A program made the translations under genes and the position numbers. DNA of 53,491 nucleotides from NCBI GenBank assembly GCA_900299185.1, contig OMIV01000091.1:1-53491 (forward strand). The letters run 5' to 3'. This DNA is from Planctomycetaceae bacterium. GTDB lineage: Bacteria > Planctomycetota > Planctomycetia > Planctomycetales > Planctomycetaceae. Positions 6,950-51,034 of this stretch are shown here, piece by piece. The notes under the pieces were generated by a model that saw only the letters and a program-made list of their open reading frames with translations, did no database searches and was not told where the DNA came from. The first letter of the stretch is position 1. Each line of letters starts with the position of its first letter.

Positions 6950-6980
6950 TGCATGTTCAAGGCTCGATTTTCGGGTGATG

Positions 6981-7028
6981 CGAGTCGCGGAGCGACTCGC
7001 CTACGTAGCTCAGTCGCACCGCGACTGA
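6981..7028 (+). repeat. Family 1 palindromic repeat, copy A
   Basis: A bipartite palindromic element: one hairpin (GAGTCGCGGAGCGACTC), a CTACGTAG core, then a second hairpin (CAGTCGCACCGCGACTG). Other copies occur at 7822-7870, 14720-14770 and 18824-18873. The organisation resembles REP/BIME elements. This copy lies between cassette genes 2 and 3. Confidence 0.85.
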
Positions 7029-7111
7029 GATGAGTGCCCCGCAGGCTTAGCTCTGAAGACGCACTTGGACCGTTCGGAATTGCTCGATCACCACTTCGTT
7101 GGAGCGTCATC

Positions 7112-7798: not shown

Positions 7799-8267
7799 TT
7801 AGTGCGTCTTCCAGGCTAAGACTCAGTCGCGGAGCGACTGAGCTACGTAGGCGAGTCGCTCCGCGACTCGCTGCATCCGAAGTTCACGGCTTGAGGCCAT
7901 ACAAAGAGCATGTCCGAGAAGTGAGATAAGCAGAGCACCACATCGAAGCTCGCCACCAACCGAGCACGAACACTCGCGTCCGGGTGCTCGCTCCGAACGA
8001 CGAATCCGCAAGTGCCCTGCAGTCCGTGTTTCATTTCCCGCCATGATCTATCCTGCCGCCCCAAGTTCAGGCATTGGCGTCGCGGTCGACATGATCCTCG
8101 CGGATGTGGAGACACCCAAGTCAGTGCCTGCTCTTGGTGGCGACCGTGCCCCCGCGGTTCCTGGCGACGCAGACATCGGAAGCACTCAGCCACATCGTCA
8201 ATCTTTGAAGACAGCAGCGTCTCGACGTCGTCGTCAGGCGCGCCAATGAATCCCACACGAAACCACC
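7799..8267. other. Intergenic region with repeat copy B, otherwise empty
   Basis: This 469-nt gap between cassette gene 3 and the RluA-type gene holds repeat copy B near its left end. The remaining roughly 400 nt contain overlapping short open frames on both strands with no Shine-Dalgarno or recognisable product, so I see no gene. The promoter of the pseudouridine synthase is presumably in the right half. Confidence 0.5.
7822..7870 (-). repeat. Family 1 palindromic repeat, copy B
   Basis: The reverse complement of copy A with one base difference in the CAGTCGC hairpin loop: hairpin, CTACGTAG core, second hairpin (GAGTCGCTCCGCGACTC). It lies 24 nt after the stop of cassette gene 3, where its stem-loops could protect or terminate the transcript. 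Confidence 0.85.
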
Positions 8268-13381: not shown

Positions 13382-13779
13382 AAGCCCACCTTGGTTGCTC
13401 GAAGTTGTGATGATGGAGCGACGGGACGATTCCAGCCTCAATGGAGTCAGCCCTGCGCCGTGCTCGGCAGATCATGGATGGGCCGTCGTCCGTCGAGAAG
13501 CGGAGCGATGAAACGTCGTCGCAATACCTTCCTAAATTGGGTGGCACGCCCTGAGTACTCGAAGGGCGTGTGATGCCATCGCCTGACCACGCCCTTCCCG
13601 TTGGTCAGAGCGTGCCACCCCAAACACTTCGGGGCGTAATCACAGCCCCGTGCCCATGAAACGTCGCGTCGATCGTGCAACGAAATGAACGTCGATGGCA
13701 ATTTGATCGACATGCCAGGAAAGTGTCGGGGCAGCGACTTCGGTCGGCTTTCCAACGTTCAAGATTCAAGGCCATCGCC
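13382..13779. other. Divergent intergenic region with a long palindrome
   Basis: This 398-nt space separates the UnbV protein gene (minus) from the kinase gene (plus). Its main content is the family 2 palindrome at 13539-13621. The kinase frame stays open upstream to 13675, but that extension lacks the conserved start. Both promoters should lie here; none can be assigned with confidence. Confidence 0.5.
13539..13621 (+). repeat. Family 2 long palindromic repeat, copy 1
   Basis: An element of about 83 nt beginning GGGTGGCACGCCCTGAG and ending with the near-complement GAGCGTGCCACCCC, with a second inner stem GAAGGGCGTG / CACGCCCTTC. It can fold as one long, twice-interrupted hairpin. Nearly identical to 15450-15529; diverged copies at 42836-42918 and 44599-44677. 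Confidence 0.88.
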
Positions 13780-14719: not shown

Positions 14720-14770
14720 GCGAGTTGTTGCAGCGACTCGCCTACGTAGCTCAGTCGCTCCGCGACTGAG
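14720..14770 (+). repeat. Family 1 palindromic repeat, copy C
   Basis: Same orientation as copy A: degenerate first hairpin (CGAGTTGTTGCAGCGACTCG), CTACGTAG core, intact second hairpin (CAGTCGCTCCGCGACTG). It fills the gap between the convergent kinase and methyltransferase genes and could act as a bidirectional terminator. Confidence 0.82.
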
Positions 14771-15449: not shown

Positions 15450-15529
15450 GGGTGGCACGCCCTGAGTACTCGAAGGGCGTGGCTGGCTGGTATCCCCACG
15501 CCCTTTCCGTTGGTCAGGGCGTGCCACCC
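15450..15529 (+). repeat. Family 2 long palindromic repeat, copy 2
   Basis: An 80-nt palindrome beginning GGGTGGCACGCCCTGAG and ending TCAGGGCGTGCCACCC, with inner stem GAAGGGCGTG / CACGCCCTTT. It is the most symmetrical copy. It lies between the stop of the ABC exporter gene and the methyltransferase start, both on the minus strand, where it could terminate the exporter transcript. Confidence 0.88.
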
Positions 15530-15573
15530 AAACCAGCGTCTATTTCCAAGTCGGAGTTGTCCTCATGGATTCC

Positions 15574-17574: not shown

Positions 17575-17889
17575 GCCGCGATTGTAGAGCCCTGCCGTGA
17601 GGACGGCATTGCCGCCGCGAGACAACGCAGCCGTAGCTTGGGATTCCATCCCGAGCGTTTTCTCATGCAGTTTGAGTTTCACCGAGAAGACAAAGACAGC
17701 TCGGGATGGAATCCCAAGCTACGGGGGCTCGCCTTCGGAAACGATTCCGACAGAATCCGCACCCGCGCGTTGGCGACCTTTCCAACACGTCACGTCCCGG
17801 CGATCAGAGCATGTCGAAGGCGTGCTCTGCGAGCCTCATCAAACACAGCATTTTCAAGGCGAGATACTCGCCAATTGCAGGACCGGCGT
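17575..17889. other. Divergent intergenic region with a perfect inverted repeat
   Basis: This 315-nt gap lies between the divergent ABC exporter and truB genes. It holds a perfect 26-bp inverted repeat (17631-17656 and 17699-17724). No other gene is seen; both promoters should be located here. Confidence 0.5.
17631..17724. repeat. Perfect 26-bp inverted repeat with 42-nt spacer
   Basis: The left arm 17631-17656 (starts CCGTAGCTTGGGATTCC, ends CCCGAGC) is exactly complementary to the right arm 17699-17724. The spacer is a 42-nt stretch of ordinary composition without an open frame. The structure could be a long hairpin, a protein-binding site or a miniature mobile element; flanking direct repeats are not evident. 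Confidence 0.9.
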
Positions 17890-18843
17890 ATGACCACCGT
17901 CGCCCCATACGGCGTTATCAATATCAACAAACCGATCGGCAAGACTTCGGCAGACGTCGTTAATCGGGTCGCGTGGCTGCTGCGAAAAAGCACCGGCATC
18001 AAAAAGTTTAAGGCCGGGCATTGCGGCACGTTGGACCCCTTGGCCACCGGCGTGCTGCTGGTTTGCGTCGGCAGCGCCACCCGACTGATGCCTCTGATTC
18101 AAGAACACTCCAAGTCCTATCGAGGTCGCTTCGTTCTGGGAGTTTCGACCGACACTGATGACATCACCGGACGAGTCCTAGCCGAAGCGCCGACAGCCGC
18201 GACCTCGATTCAACGCGAGGACCTAGAGCGACTGCTGCCCGAGTTCACCGGGGTCATCCAGCAAGTCCCACCCAAGTTCTCGGCAGTGCATGTGGATGGT
18301 CGACGAGCCTACGTCTTGGCTCGCGACGGCCAGGCTGTAGAAATTCCACCACGTGAAGTGGCCGTCCAACGTTTAGAACTGACGAGCTTCGAAGCGCCTC
18401 AATTCGAACTGTCGATCGACTGCGGCACGGGCACCTACATTCGCTCGATTGGCCGTGACCTCGGTGAGCGTCTCGGTTGCGGAGCCACAATGACAGAGCT
18501 GGCGCGAACCACCGTCGGCCCGTTCTCGATGGAAGCCGGACATCAACTTGATGATCTCACGATCGACAACGTGCAGGACGCGATCGAATCGCCGCTGCTG
18601 GCGATTCCTAACTATCCCAGCTACGTGCTGGATGACGAAGAGACCGCCCGCATTCGCACCGGCAACTATGTGAAGCCGCGAACTGATGTGCCGGAATCCG
18701 CTAAGGAAGTCGCGTTGCTGAATGAACGCGGAGAACTCGTGGCCGTGGCTCGGCTCAATCATCAGTACCACGTCTTGCGACCGATCATGCTGTTGATCGA
18801 AGCGCAGAAGCTACCGAAGCACTCTCAGTCGCGGAGCTACTGA
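17890..18843 (+). CDS. truB: tRNA pseudouridine(55) synthase TruB
   Basis: A 317-residue enzyme that converts U55 of the tRNA T-loop to pseudouridine. It starts at the ATG at 17890, giving APYGVININKPIGKTS, the usual TruB N-terminus. Catalytic aspartate D49 lies in GHCGTLDPLATGVL; further motifs are SKSYRGRFVLG, QVPPKFSAVHVDGRRAY and CGTGTYIRSIGRDLG. A roughly 70-residue C-terminal extension resembles the usual TruB C-terminal/PUA-like part. The last few codons and the stop TGA are contributed by the family 1 repeat at 18824-18873, so the tail residues HSQSRSY are probably not conserved. Confidence 0.97.
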   Translation: MTTVAPYGVININKPIGKTSADVVNRVAWLLRKSTGIKKFKAGHCGTLDPLATGVLLVCVGSATRLMPLIQEHSKSYRGRFVLGVSTDTDDITGRVLAEAPTAATSIQREDLERLLPEFTGVIQQVPPKFSAVHVDGRRAYVLARDGQAVEIPPREVAVQRLELTSFEAPQFELSIDCGTGTYIRSIGRDLGERLGCGATMTELARTTVGPFSMEAGHQLDDLTIDNVQDAIESPLLAIPNYPSYVLDDEETARIRTGNYVKPRTDVPESAKEVALLNERGELVAVARLNHQYHVLRPIMLLIEAQKLPKHSQSRSY

Positions 18844-18873
18844 GCTACGTAGGCGAGTCGCTCCGCGACTCGC
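18824..18873 (-). repeat. Family 1 palindromic repeat, copy D (overlaps end of truB)
   Basis: Orientation as copy B: hairpin CAGTCGCGGAGCTACTG, CTACGTAG core, hairpin GAGTCGCTCCGCGACTC. It begins inside the last codons of truB, supplies its stop codon and ends 9 nt before the stop of the convergent flippase gene. Confidence 0.85.
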
Positions 18874-18881
18874 ATGTTGAA

Positions 18882-20243
18882 TTAGCTCTTCATCACATCG
18901 TCCTCAGCATCAACTTGGAGTTCACGTCGGACTCGCCACCAGATCCACGTATGCGGCGGCAAGTAGCACAGCCCCAAAGTCAGCAAGTGAGCCAACGCTG
19001 CTCCCAGCGGGCCGTTCTTCGAACCCCAATACCACCCCGCGCAGCCCGTCGCCGAGTAAGCGATCGTCGCTAGCAGGCAGAAGGGATCAATCCGATGTGC
19101 TCGAACGTTGTAAGCCTGCGGAGTGAGAATTTGGATGACGAGTGCGCCGCCAAACAGCACCGCTGTCGGACCAACCGGCAACAACCTGTCGGCCAACTTC
19201 GGCGCAATCGCTTGCAAGCCGACGATCCCCAGTAACACACCTGCCGCAGCCACAGCAGTGAAGCCGAGACTCACCAACGTCAGCCGTTTGAGCAACCGAT
19301 CCAGTTCGGCGAAGCGGCGTTTCGAAACCAGTTCCGAGAACACCGGCACGCGCGTCGAAAGCCAAGCTGCTCCGGCGGTTTGTATGGCGGTGATCAACGT
19401 CAGCGTCATCCCCATCTGCCCCGCAACGACAGCTCCGTGATATTGAAACATCAAGGGGTTAAAGAGGTTGTTCGCCGCCCAATAGCCGAGGCCCTGCAGC
19501 GCGATGCGCCATTGCAACGGCCAGATTTCGTCGCGCCATGAGATGGGATGCTCACCAGCCAAAGCTTGCACGCCGCGTCGCAACTGCCGAAAGCGAACCT
19601 CGACCAGCCAAGTCTCGAATGCCAACCTCACCGCGCCGGAAACGACCGCCGTCCAGAGTCCTGCATGACAGGCGATCGCCGTCCAAACGGCGGCGTTGCC
19701 ACAGACTCCTTGCCAGAACCTCACCGCATTGACGGCGCGCATCTGATGACAGCCTTCCAACAAGGCCATGCGCGGAATCAATCGCAACGACAATCCCGTC
19801 AGCACCGTGAGACACCACCACGGAGCCTGCCACTCGATGTCACTGTTGTGGCTGCGGAAGAAGTAGAAGCCGGATACTCCTGTCACCACGACAAACATCA
19901 GGGCACAGATCGAGTACCAGCGATCCACAAACTTCAGCAGGCTGGCCAGCCTGGAACCTGCCAAGGCATCTCCCGAGATGGTGCCATTTGGCTCCAGCTT
20001 CAGGTGAGCCCACTCATGCGCGACGAGATTCACCAGCACCGTCTGCAAGCCCAGCTCAAAAAACATTTGCAGAGTGAGCACGCTGCCGAAGGTGTAGAAG
20101 TAGCCCTGAGTTTCTTGCGGCAAGAATCGAGCAATCAGCAGCATCGTCACGGGACCGGCTAAGACTTGCCATCCGCGCGCAGCGACCGCGTACGCCACCG
20201 CGCGGTCGACTTCGAGCGTCTTGAGCAACTGTCTGAAAGCCAT
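18882..20243 (-). CDS. Polysaccharide-flippase-like polytopic membrane protein
   Basis: A 453-residue protein with about 12 hydrophobic segments spread over its whole length. The N-terminal pattern (LARFLPQETQGYFYTFGSVL type, with a following MFFELGLQTVLVN) is that of MOP-superfamily O-antigen/teichoic-acid flippases, where an Arg-Phe-Leu-(x)n-Gly-Tyr-(Tyr/Phe) motif follows helix 1. A function in moving lipid-linked glycans or another lipid intermediate across the membrane is inferred from this. No glycan biosynthesis gene lies next to it; the neighbours are truB (convergent) and a sulfatase upstream on the same strand, 67 nt away. Confidence 0.75.
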   Translation of the reverse strand: MAFRQLLKTLEVDRAVAYAVAARGWQVLAGPVTMLLIARFLPQETQGYFYTFGSVLTLQMFFELGLQTVLVNLVAHEWAHLKLEPNGTISGDALAGSRLASLLKFVDRWYSICALMFVVVTGVSGFYFFRSHNSDIEWQAPWWCLTVLTGLSLRLIPRMALLEGCHQMRAVNAVRFWQGVCGNAAVWTAIACHAGLWTAVVSGAVRLAFETWLVEVRFRQLRRGVQALAGEHPISWRDEIWPLQWRIALQGLGYWAANNLFNPLMFQYHGAVVAGQMGMTLTLITAIQTAGAAWLSTRVPVFSELVSKRRFAELDRLLKRLTLVSLGFTAVAAAGVLLGIVGLQAIAPKLADRLLPVGPTAVLFGGALVIQILTPQAYNVRAHRIDPFCLLATIAYSATGCAGWYWGSKNGPLGAALAHLLTLGLCYLPPHTWIWWRVRRELQVDAEDDVMKS

Positions 20244-42801: not shown

Positions 42802-42835
42802 GGATCGGGGCTGTGAAGACTTCTCAAGTTCGTTT

Positions 42836-42918
42836 GGGTGGCTCGCTCTTACTAACGTGAAGGGCGCGGTCGCGATAAGCGAGCACGCGCCCTTCTAGTA
42901 CTCATAAGCGGGCTACCC
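42836..42918 (-). repeat. Family 2 long palindromic repeat, copy 4 (diverged)
   Basis: Read on the minus strand it aligns with copies 1 and 2 (GGGTAGCCCGC, then TGAGTACTAGAAGGGCGCG). Many positions differ, but the outer and inner stems still pair. It lies between the convergent GT-C-like and dapB genes, a typical terminator position. Confidence 0.78.
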
Positions 42919-44552: not shown

Positions 44553-44598
44553 GGATTCTTGGGAAATAACTTCCCGGCCTCGGCACTAGTGATGGTTT

Positions 44599-44677
44599 GG
44601 GTGGCACGCCCTGACCATCGAAAAGGGCGTGGTGAGGCCAGCAGCCACGAGCCCTTCGATTACTCCAAGCGTCCCAC
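44599..44677 (+). repeat. Family 2 palindromic repeat, copy 3 (partial symmetry)
   Basis: The left half is intact (GGGTGGCACGCCCTGA, then AAAAGGGCGTGG), while the right half is diverged (CACGAGCCCTTCGATTACTCC, ending GCGTCCCAC). It fills most of the gap between the two Hsp20 genes and could change their relative expression. Confidence 0.72.
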
Positions 44678-46435: not shown

Positions 46436-46483
46436 TTCGTCACGTCGCAAAGCAACCATCACAGAGGGTTCTGGCACAACTCG

Positions 46484-46546
46484 TCGAGCACGTTTCAAAC
46501 GTGCTCGATTAAATCAAAGGCAGGCACGTTGGAAACGCGCCCCACG
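46484..46546 (+). repeat. Family 3 palindromic repeat, copy 1
   Basis: The hairpin GAGCACGTTTCAAACGTGCTC is followed by a spacer and GGCACGTTGGAAACGCGCC, then CCCAC. A matching copy lies at 50727-50789. It sits between the convergent truD and response-regulator genes. Confidence 0.82.
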
Positions 46547-46639
46547 CAAGTTCTGCATCAGTGCGATCAGCGATCTGAACCAAAGCCGCCAGCAGCATCG
46601 ACACGCCGGTGACAATGAGCACCGCAGCAAGAGCCGACA

Positions 46640-50577: not shown

Positions 50578-51034
50578 GGCGATTGCTCCTGGTTGTTGAT
50601 CCTGTCGACGAACGTGGGCCGAATCGTCATGGACCATGCGTTGATCGGCAAGCCGACGAAGAGTCATCGCCGCTCAGATGTCAGCAACGTTCGTCAGTTG
50701 CAGAGCTGTCATTTGCAACGGACCTCGTGGAGCACGTTTTCAACGTGCTGGAATCAGTCGAATTCAGGCACATTGAAAACGTGCCCCACATGAATTCTGG
50801 ACTTCGGTCGGAAACGCCTGAGCTGTGATTTGCGTTACAAAGTCGGCGCTCGCTGAAACTCTGCCGCCTCTTGCCGAGTAGTCGTCGTGCCGAGTTCTCG
50901 TTGCAATGCTGTCGCGAGTCCGAAGTTCGACCTGCGTTCTCATTGCTTCAGCAATGAGCGGCCTGCGGGCTCGAACACGAATGGAACTCGGCACCGTTGC
51001 TCATCGTCCCGCTGCGAACATCAGGATTCTGATT
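50578..51034. other. Divergent intergenic region with a repeat copy
   Basis: This 457-nt gap lies between fhcD (minus) and the polytopic membrane gene (plus). It carries family 3 repeat copy 2 at 50727-50789. The membrane-protein frame stays open back to 50906 but lacks coding character there. No small gene is supported. Confidence 0.45.
50727..50789 (+). repeat. Family 3 palindromic repeat, copy 2
   Basis: GTGGAGCACGTTTTCAACGTG, a spacer, then GGCACATTGAAAACGTGCC and CCAC: the outer GTGG/CCAC and the two inner hairpins all pair. It matches copy 1 at 46484-46546. It sits in the space between two divergent genes. Confidence 0.82.

Follow-up and report, generated by a model that had tools for sequence, protein, structure and literature searches.

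What becomes of the end of a housekeeping gene when a repetitive element lies across its last codons? The 3′ end of truB in a Planctomycetaceae bacterium raises this question. We analysed the whole 53,491-nt stretch of DNA carrying the gene (assembly GCA_900299185.1, contig OMIV01000091.1), referred to here as the window, and followed the repeat at its end through the genome and the family.

The 3′ end of truB

The truB gene (17890-18843, forward strand) is an open reading frame of 317 codons followed by a TGA stop codon. Its product, tRNA pseudouridine-55 synthase, contains the Pfam domains TruB_N (3.3e-52) and TruB_C_2 (8.7e-11). A repeat, copy D, with a core of 50 nt on the forward strand (18824-18873) overlaps the end of the gene. 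The first base of this core falls within codon Ser312 (18823-18825), codons 313-317 (CAG TCG CGG AGC TAC, encoding QSRSY) lie inside it, and the TGA follows at 18841-18843. The last five residues of TruB and its stop codon are supplied by the repeat. Among the three forward frames through the element, only that of truB meets a stop, at core offset 18-20. The nine codons preceding Ser312 (codons 303-311, IEAQKLPKH, 18796-18822) are located outside the repeat and have no conserved counterpart in the orthologues. The sequence-only reading had placed the beginning of copy D in the last truB codons, and the stop codon and last residues in its first hairpin; the codon read-out bears out both statements. 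Its start at 18800 correctly located the copy at the truB end, but included 24 nt of flank ahead of the core.

On the other side of the repeat, a convergent ORF of 453 amino acids (18882-20243, reverse strand), called by codon usage and without a Pfam match at 0.001, ends with a TAA at a distance of 8 nt from the repeat. Between the two stop codons lie 38 nt, 30 of which are occupied by the repeat. An intrinsic terminator, consisting of a GC-rich hairpin and a T run, was not found at 18700-19000.

A tail-to-tail pair of GTAG REPs

The element consists of two halves, each made up of a GTAG tag and a stem of 9 bp closed by a 3-nt loop. REP 1 (18824-18844, forward strand) reads CTCAGTCGC-GGA-GC(T)ACTGAG and encodes the end of TruB, stop codon included. 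The abutting tags of both REPs, CTAC and GTAG, are read directly at 18845-18852, and REP 2 (18853-18873, forward strand) forms a hairpin with a predicted fold of -15.3 kcal/mol. In full, the truB copy reads CTCAGTCGC-GGA-GCTACTGAG, CTACGTAG, GCGAGTCGC-TCC-GCGACTCGC. The consensus halves are GTAG-GCGAGTCGCTCCGCGACTCGC and, on the opposite strand, GTAG-CTCAGTCGCTCCGCGACTGAG, each a GTAG tag with a short imperfect palindrome. The truB copy is 98% identical to the window copy 7822-7871 and departs from the consensus by a single change, G to T at 18838, which turns Asp into Tyr.

This change breaks one pair of the local hairpin, whose predicted energy shifts from -13.7 to -7.7 kcal/mol. The fold of 18824-18873 reaches -27.7 kcal/mol and is equalled by 3 of 200 shuffles; for the consensus core, a single long hairpin of -33.7 kcal/mol is predicted, equalled by 0 of 200. 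The weaker fold of the truB copy is due to the change at 18838. For 71-nt windows, 3/200 and 5/200 shuffles were as good on the two strands. Within the local hairpin 18824-18844, the TGA belongs to the 3′ arm. When the full 50 nt are folded, the best prediction is a single long hairpin built from both REPs, with the TGA close to its apex, one base being paired and two bulged.

A REPIN is a head-to-head inverted pair of REPs in which the GTAG tags lie on the outside and a spacer separates the two. Bertels and Rainey (2011) are said to have described REPINs as paired inverted REPs. The truB repeat resembles RAYT-linked REPs and REPINs in that its REPs are paired, inverted and headed by GT(A/G)G, but unlike a REPIN it carries its tags inside and has no spacer, and the REPIN layout is ruled out for this copy. 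PMC2817692 describes REPs that accompany RAYT transposases and form inverted pairs headed by GT(A/G)G. In the terms of PMC3733652, the repeat at the truB end is a tail-to-tail heterodimer of GTAG REPs.

The 17-nt centre of the element, allowing up to 2 mismatches, has 113 + 94 = 207 matches in the 7.87-Mb genome; the reversed 17-nt pattern, used as a control, has 3 + 0 = 3. A repeat this frequent, in an assembly of 383 contigs, could have caused unrelated flanks to be misjoined, and the overlap with truB would then be an artefact. We regard this as exceedingly improbable: the core is just 50 nt long, the truB copy is one base off the consensus, and an intact truB is joined to an intact convergent ORF.

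Across 100 aligned sites, the majority base accounts for 79-100% per column over approximately 51 nt, and most columns reach at least 90%. Many cores are flanked by degenerate inverted arms (left ..GTGCGTCTTCAA..TTCGGGTTGCCAAT, right TGAACCCGAAG..GAAGAAGCAC..), for which the majority base over all copies is 29-67% per column. The contrast between core and arms is visible, for example, at window copies 6957-7030 and 7822-7894. Closer analysis used 96 copies, which are the best-preserved and not a random sample: they are distinct sites in flanks and window with a core match of at least 42/50, drawn from 100 listed of the 207 places (93 exact, 7 with one mismatch). A few places fell below 42/50, such as L095, L104, L106, L113 and the window copy 14721-14770. 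By alignment, one or both arms score above the 99th percentile of random flanks in 53/96 copies, and neither does in 43/96; an earlier arm model gave 55/94 copies with an arm and 39/94 without. The truB copy has no arm at the 99th percentile (7.0), and its right flank (6.0) exceeds the 95th (5.5). An exact-pattern search of the same genome for arms without a core returned 0 matches. It may be that the core is moved or converted on its own, independent of the outer arms.

Further palindromic repeats are found in the window at 13539-13626, 15450-15535, 42832-42870, 44595-44633, 46480-46555 and 50724-50799; these six are grouped as families D5, D12, D15 and D16. Upstream of truB, at 17631-17724, lies another palindrome with perfect arms of 26 nt (CCGTAGCTTGGGATTCCATCCCGAGC), which is unrelated to the truB repeat; Rfam microRNA look-alikes at 17632-17724 scored far below threshold and are taken as chance.

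Gene ends, orthologous C-termini and the history of the overlap

Genes around the copies were called by codon usage and not by a gene finder. The neighbours of the 96 copies are co-directional in 58 cases, convergent in 23 and divergent in 11, with one side missing in 4. The family is present in high copy number and is mostly intergenic, with 92/96 analysed copies overlapping no called gene. Copies are faced by 105 gene 3′ ends in all. The stop is 8-60 nt away from the core in 64 of these and more than 60 nt away in 37; the interval of 0-7 nt is empty, and the remaining 4 ends lie inside or across the core. When only the well-scored facing ends are considered (n=91, at the 96 copies), truB alone has its stop inside the core, which makes it an exception in the examined part of the genome. 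At L096 (G000:C189:49790-52400; centre at 1303), a weak ORF of 468 nt ends at the same TGA with the tail WESWSGSD; at L114 (centre at 1303), a weak ORF on the other strand ends at the TGA of the opposite core edge; and at L067 a weakly scored call runs through the core. Core-internal stops end truB and perhaps the weakly scored ORFs at L096 and L114. The TAG in the TAGTGC at the outer arm end doubles as the stop codon for 9/105 facing genes (L039, L041, L049, L068, L077, L092, L110, L131 and window copy 6978-7029).

A truB match is present in 154/170 family genomes, including the genome studied here. We compared the C-termini of 40 orthologues, 28 in a first alignment and 12 further ones, omitting L019 because of a stop within its match. 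Conservation extends to the column of P298, present in 26/28, and four mostly hydrophobic positions follow up to L302. The sequence-only reading had expected homology to end just before QSRSY; instead, it ends at residue 302. TruB homology, closing at P298-L302, thereby stops 9 codons (303-311) ahead of the repeat, and 15 residues extend beyond L302. Tails past this point are mostly short and unconserved in the orthologues. Their median length in the 26 orthologues bearing the proline is 5 residues (range 1-34), with at least 15 in 4/26 and at least 9 in 5/26; the 12 further orthologues have tails of 2-7 residues. High-scoring orthologues at 52-53% identity have tails past PxxxF of 5 (L002), 2 (L136), 2 (L137) and 6 (L138) residues, L137 being a weak witness owing to an internal TAA in its match. 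In a fifth orthologue in this range, L004, the tail comprises 15 residues, the same length as here. None of the 40 orthologues has a C-terminus resembling QSRSY, and the case named beforehand as contrary to a repeat-derived end, a repeat-less orthologue with the same last residues, was not found among them. The genomes searched are all too distant to reveal the ancestral site: nearly full-length matches do not exceed 53%, some partial ones reach 57%, and a search of GTDB contigs for nearer truB relatives gave only 3 distant loci (38-48%).

In the sequence-only reading, the element had inserted at the gene end and replaced the native C-terminus. The repeat does provide the present stop codon and the last five residues, but replacement of a native C-terminus cannot be demonstrated, because orthologue tails are mostly short and unconserved. 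An insertion into the last truB codons, with the TGA of the element taking over from the native end, is nonetheless a tenable though tentative account. The truB frame runs uninterrupted to the core, the well-matched orthologue L004 has a 15-residue tail, and REPs at gene ends are documented in PMC3733652. When the flanks are joined with an assumed unit of 51, 52 or 54 nt removed, an early stop appears 1-4 codons past the join (HMLN or HLLN, HC, QLN, each followed by a stop), so that a gene ending almost there is possible; assumed units of 50 or 53 nt give a long read. These joined-flank reads neither prove nor exclude insertion. Against insertion stand the ancestral tail of at least 9 residues that it requires, found in 5/26 and 0/12 orthologues (5/38 together), and the 92/96 analysed copies that spare every called gene.

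We slightly favour, with middling confidence, another course of events: the element was present in the 3′ spacer first, the native stop of truB disappeared, and the frame was then read on into the repeat. A copy of the GTAG-REP pair, related to REPINs and presumably moved in trans by a RAYT-type transposase, lies between the convergent truB and the unnamed ORF, and was more likely in the spacer beforehand. The native stop would then have been lost within the first few codons past L302, lengthening TruB by up to 9 non-conserved codons and five element codons. That the truB frame enters the element and that translation ends after QSRSY is read directly. Within 18796-18822, the codons GAA, CAG, AAG and AAG are each one change away from a stop. 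Had the native stop followed a tail of t residues, its distance from the core would have been 25-3t nt, so that tails of 1-5 residues correspond to 22-10 nt. Measured against all 105 facing ends, the nearest of which is at 8 nt, tails of up to 5 residues fit, as in 21/38 orthologues with the anchor proline. Support for stop loss is reduced, however, since on the truB-facing side of the element, its CTCAG half, the nearest other stop is at 17 nt; by this measure only tails of 0-2 fit (7/38 orthologues). The 7/38 that fit stop loss on the truB side are hardly above the 5/38 that fit insertion.

Relatives, precedents and possible effects

The 17-nt centre has 0-5 matches in each of 58 relatives. 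With a 20-nt centre and up to 3 mismatches, a scan of 170 family genomes gave 220 matches in the genome studied here, 49 in G157 and 1-23 in genus g72 (twelve genomes); the others had 0-4, similar to the reversed control. Near-identical REP cores occur in two further genera (G131-G142 and G157; L148-L191), a patchy spread, and have different surroundings there; copies in other genera were viewed for 23/30 loci of L148-L177, the remainder being mostly from G157. In G139 and G138, near-identical REPs whose loops are one base longer occur in two layouts: as tail-to-tail cores flanked by other arms, and as spacer-separated pairs in head-to-head orientation. Spread of the repeat family from genus to genus, with gene ends set by it time and again, is conceivable but in our view unlikely.

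The genome contains three Y1_Tnp genes (L133-L135), and in this incomplete assembly none of the three loci has this exact core or REP nearby. At L135 (4781-5700; G000:C269), a RAYT-like Y1_Tnp gene lies between GTAG-headed palindromes of another sequence; this locus is perhaps a REPtron. At L133 (6026-6762; G000:C305), the Y1_Tnp gene is flanked by inverted repeats (62 nt, 85%), and the flanking hairpins on this contig are 2-3 mismatches away from the 15-nt hairpin of the REP at the truB end.

As background, R. baltica is a planctomycete, RU-1 is the element also called ERIC, and RPE-1 insertions are read through in frame. PMC3733652 describes GTAG-tagged REPs as short palindromes, high in copy number and mostly intergenic, which form tail-to-tail dimers and heterodimers, in some species nested in longer palindromes; it mentions a model in which dimers may arise from circular intermediates, and reports several REP families coexisting in R. 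baltica. The truB repeat shares with these REPs the GTAG tag, the short palindrome, the copy number, the intergenic bias and the tail-to-tail heterodimer. This likeness to the 24 families of that source is one of description and not of consensus, and we do not claim that the family is undescribed. The same paper reports that flanking ORFs take TAG stops from REP termini and that REPs are present in truB of three species (maltophilia, E. litoralis and S. alaskensis). There the TAG derives from the tag, whereas the stop of truB studied here is a TGA in the stem. Stops supplied by REPs and REPs in truB are already published in PMC3733652, and the present case is ordinary in kind. According to PMC2759123, the 127-bp RU-1 is fused to gene ends in enterobacteria, and in E. 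carotovora ECA3499 the repeat apparently cost the gene its normal stop and lengthened the C-terminus by some residues; RU-1 is likewise a small mobile repeat at a gene end, but its sequence is unrelated and its 127 bp set it apart. In Rickettsia conorii, truB is interrupted by the palindromic repeat RPE-1 (PMC3733652), which is similar in being a palindromic repeat in truB but is another element. On the unlikely wider reading of a family that spreads between genera, and given REPs or RPE-1 in the truB of four other species, the gene may be a preferred or tolerant acceptor.

Since alignable sequence stops at residue 302, the extension is probably near neutral for the TruB enzyme. In the mRNA, the element would place a strong predicted hairpin between the convergent genes, possibly shielding their two 3′ ends or fixing where they lie. 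REPs close to stop codons in E. coli suggest, as an analogy, that it may also slow truB termination slightly; TruB synthesis or the 3′ ends could be mildly affected. In E. coli, REPs less than 16 nt from the stop lower translation (Liang et al. 2015, quoted in PMC12306157). This precedent and the strong predicted fold also speak for an overlap that was selected, with the hairpin over the stop tuning TruB synthesis through ribosome stalling or 3′-end protection, as do the 70 nt around the stop in L021, L014 and L002, which fold strongly (-42.3, -34.6 and -32.8 kcal/mol). Other orthologues, however, fold weakly there (for example L026, -3.4 kcal/mol), the truB copy carries a change that weakens its hairpin, and no second well-scored gene end with such an overlap exists at the 96 copies. 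We regard selection of the overlap as very unlikely.

The truB locus is a clean case of a short repeat capturing the end of a housekeeping gene while leaving the alignable part of truB untouched. If the pattern of arm ends and stop codons holds, some stops adjoining such repeats would be element-derived. As a caution for annotation, terminal residues in a predicted protein can be repeat-derived.
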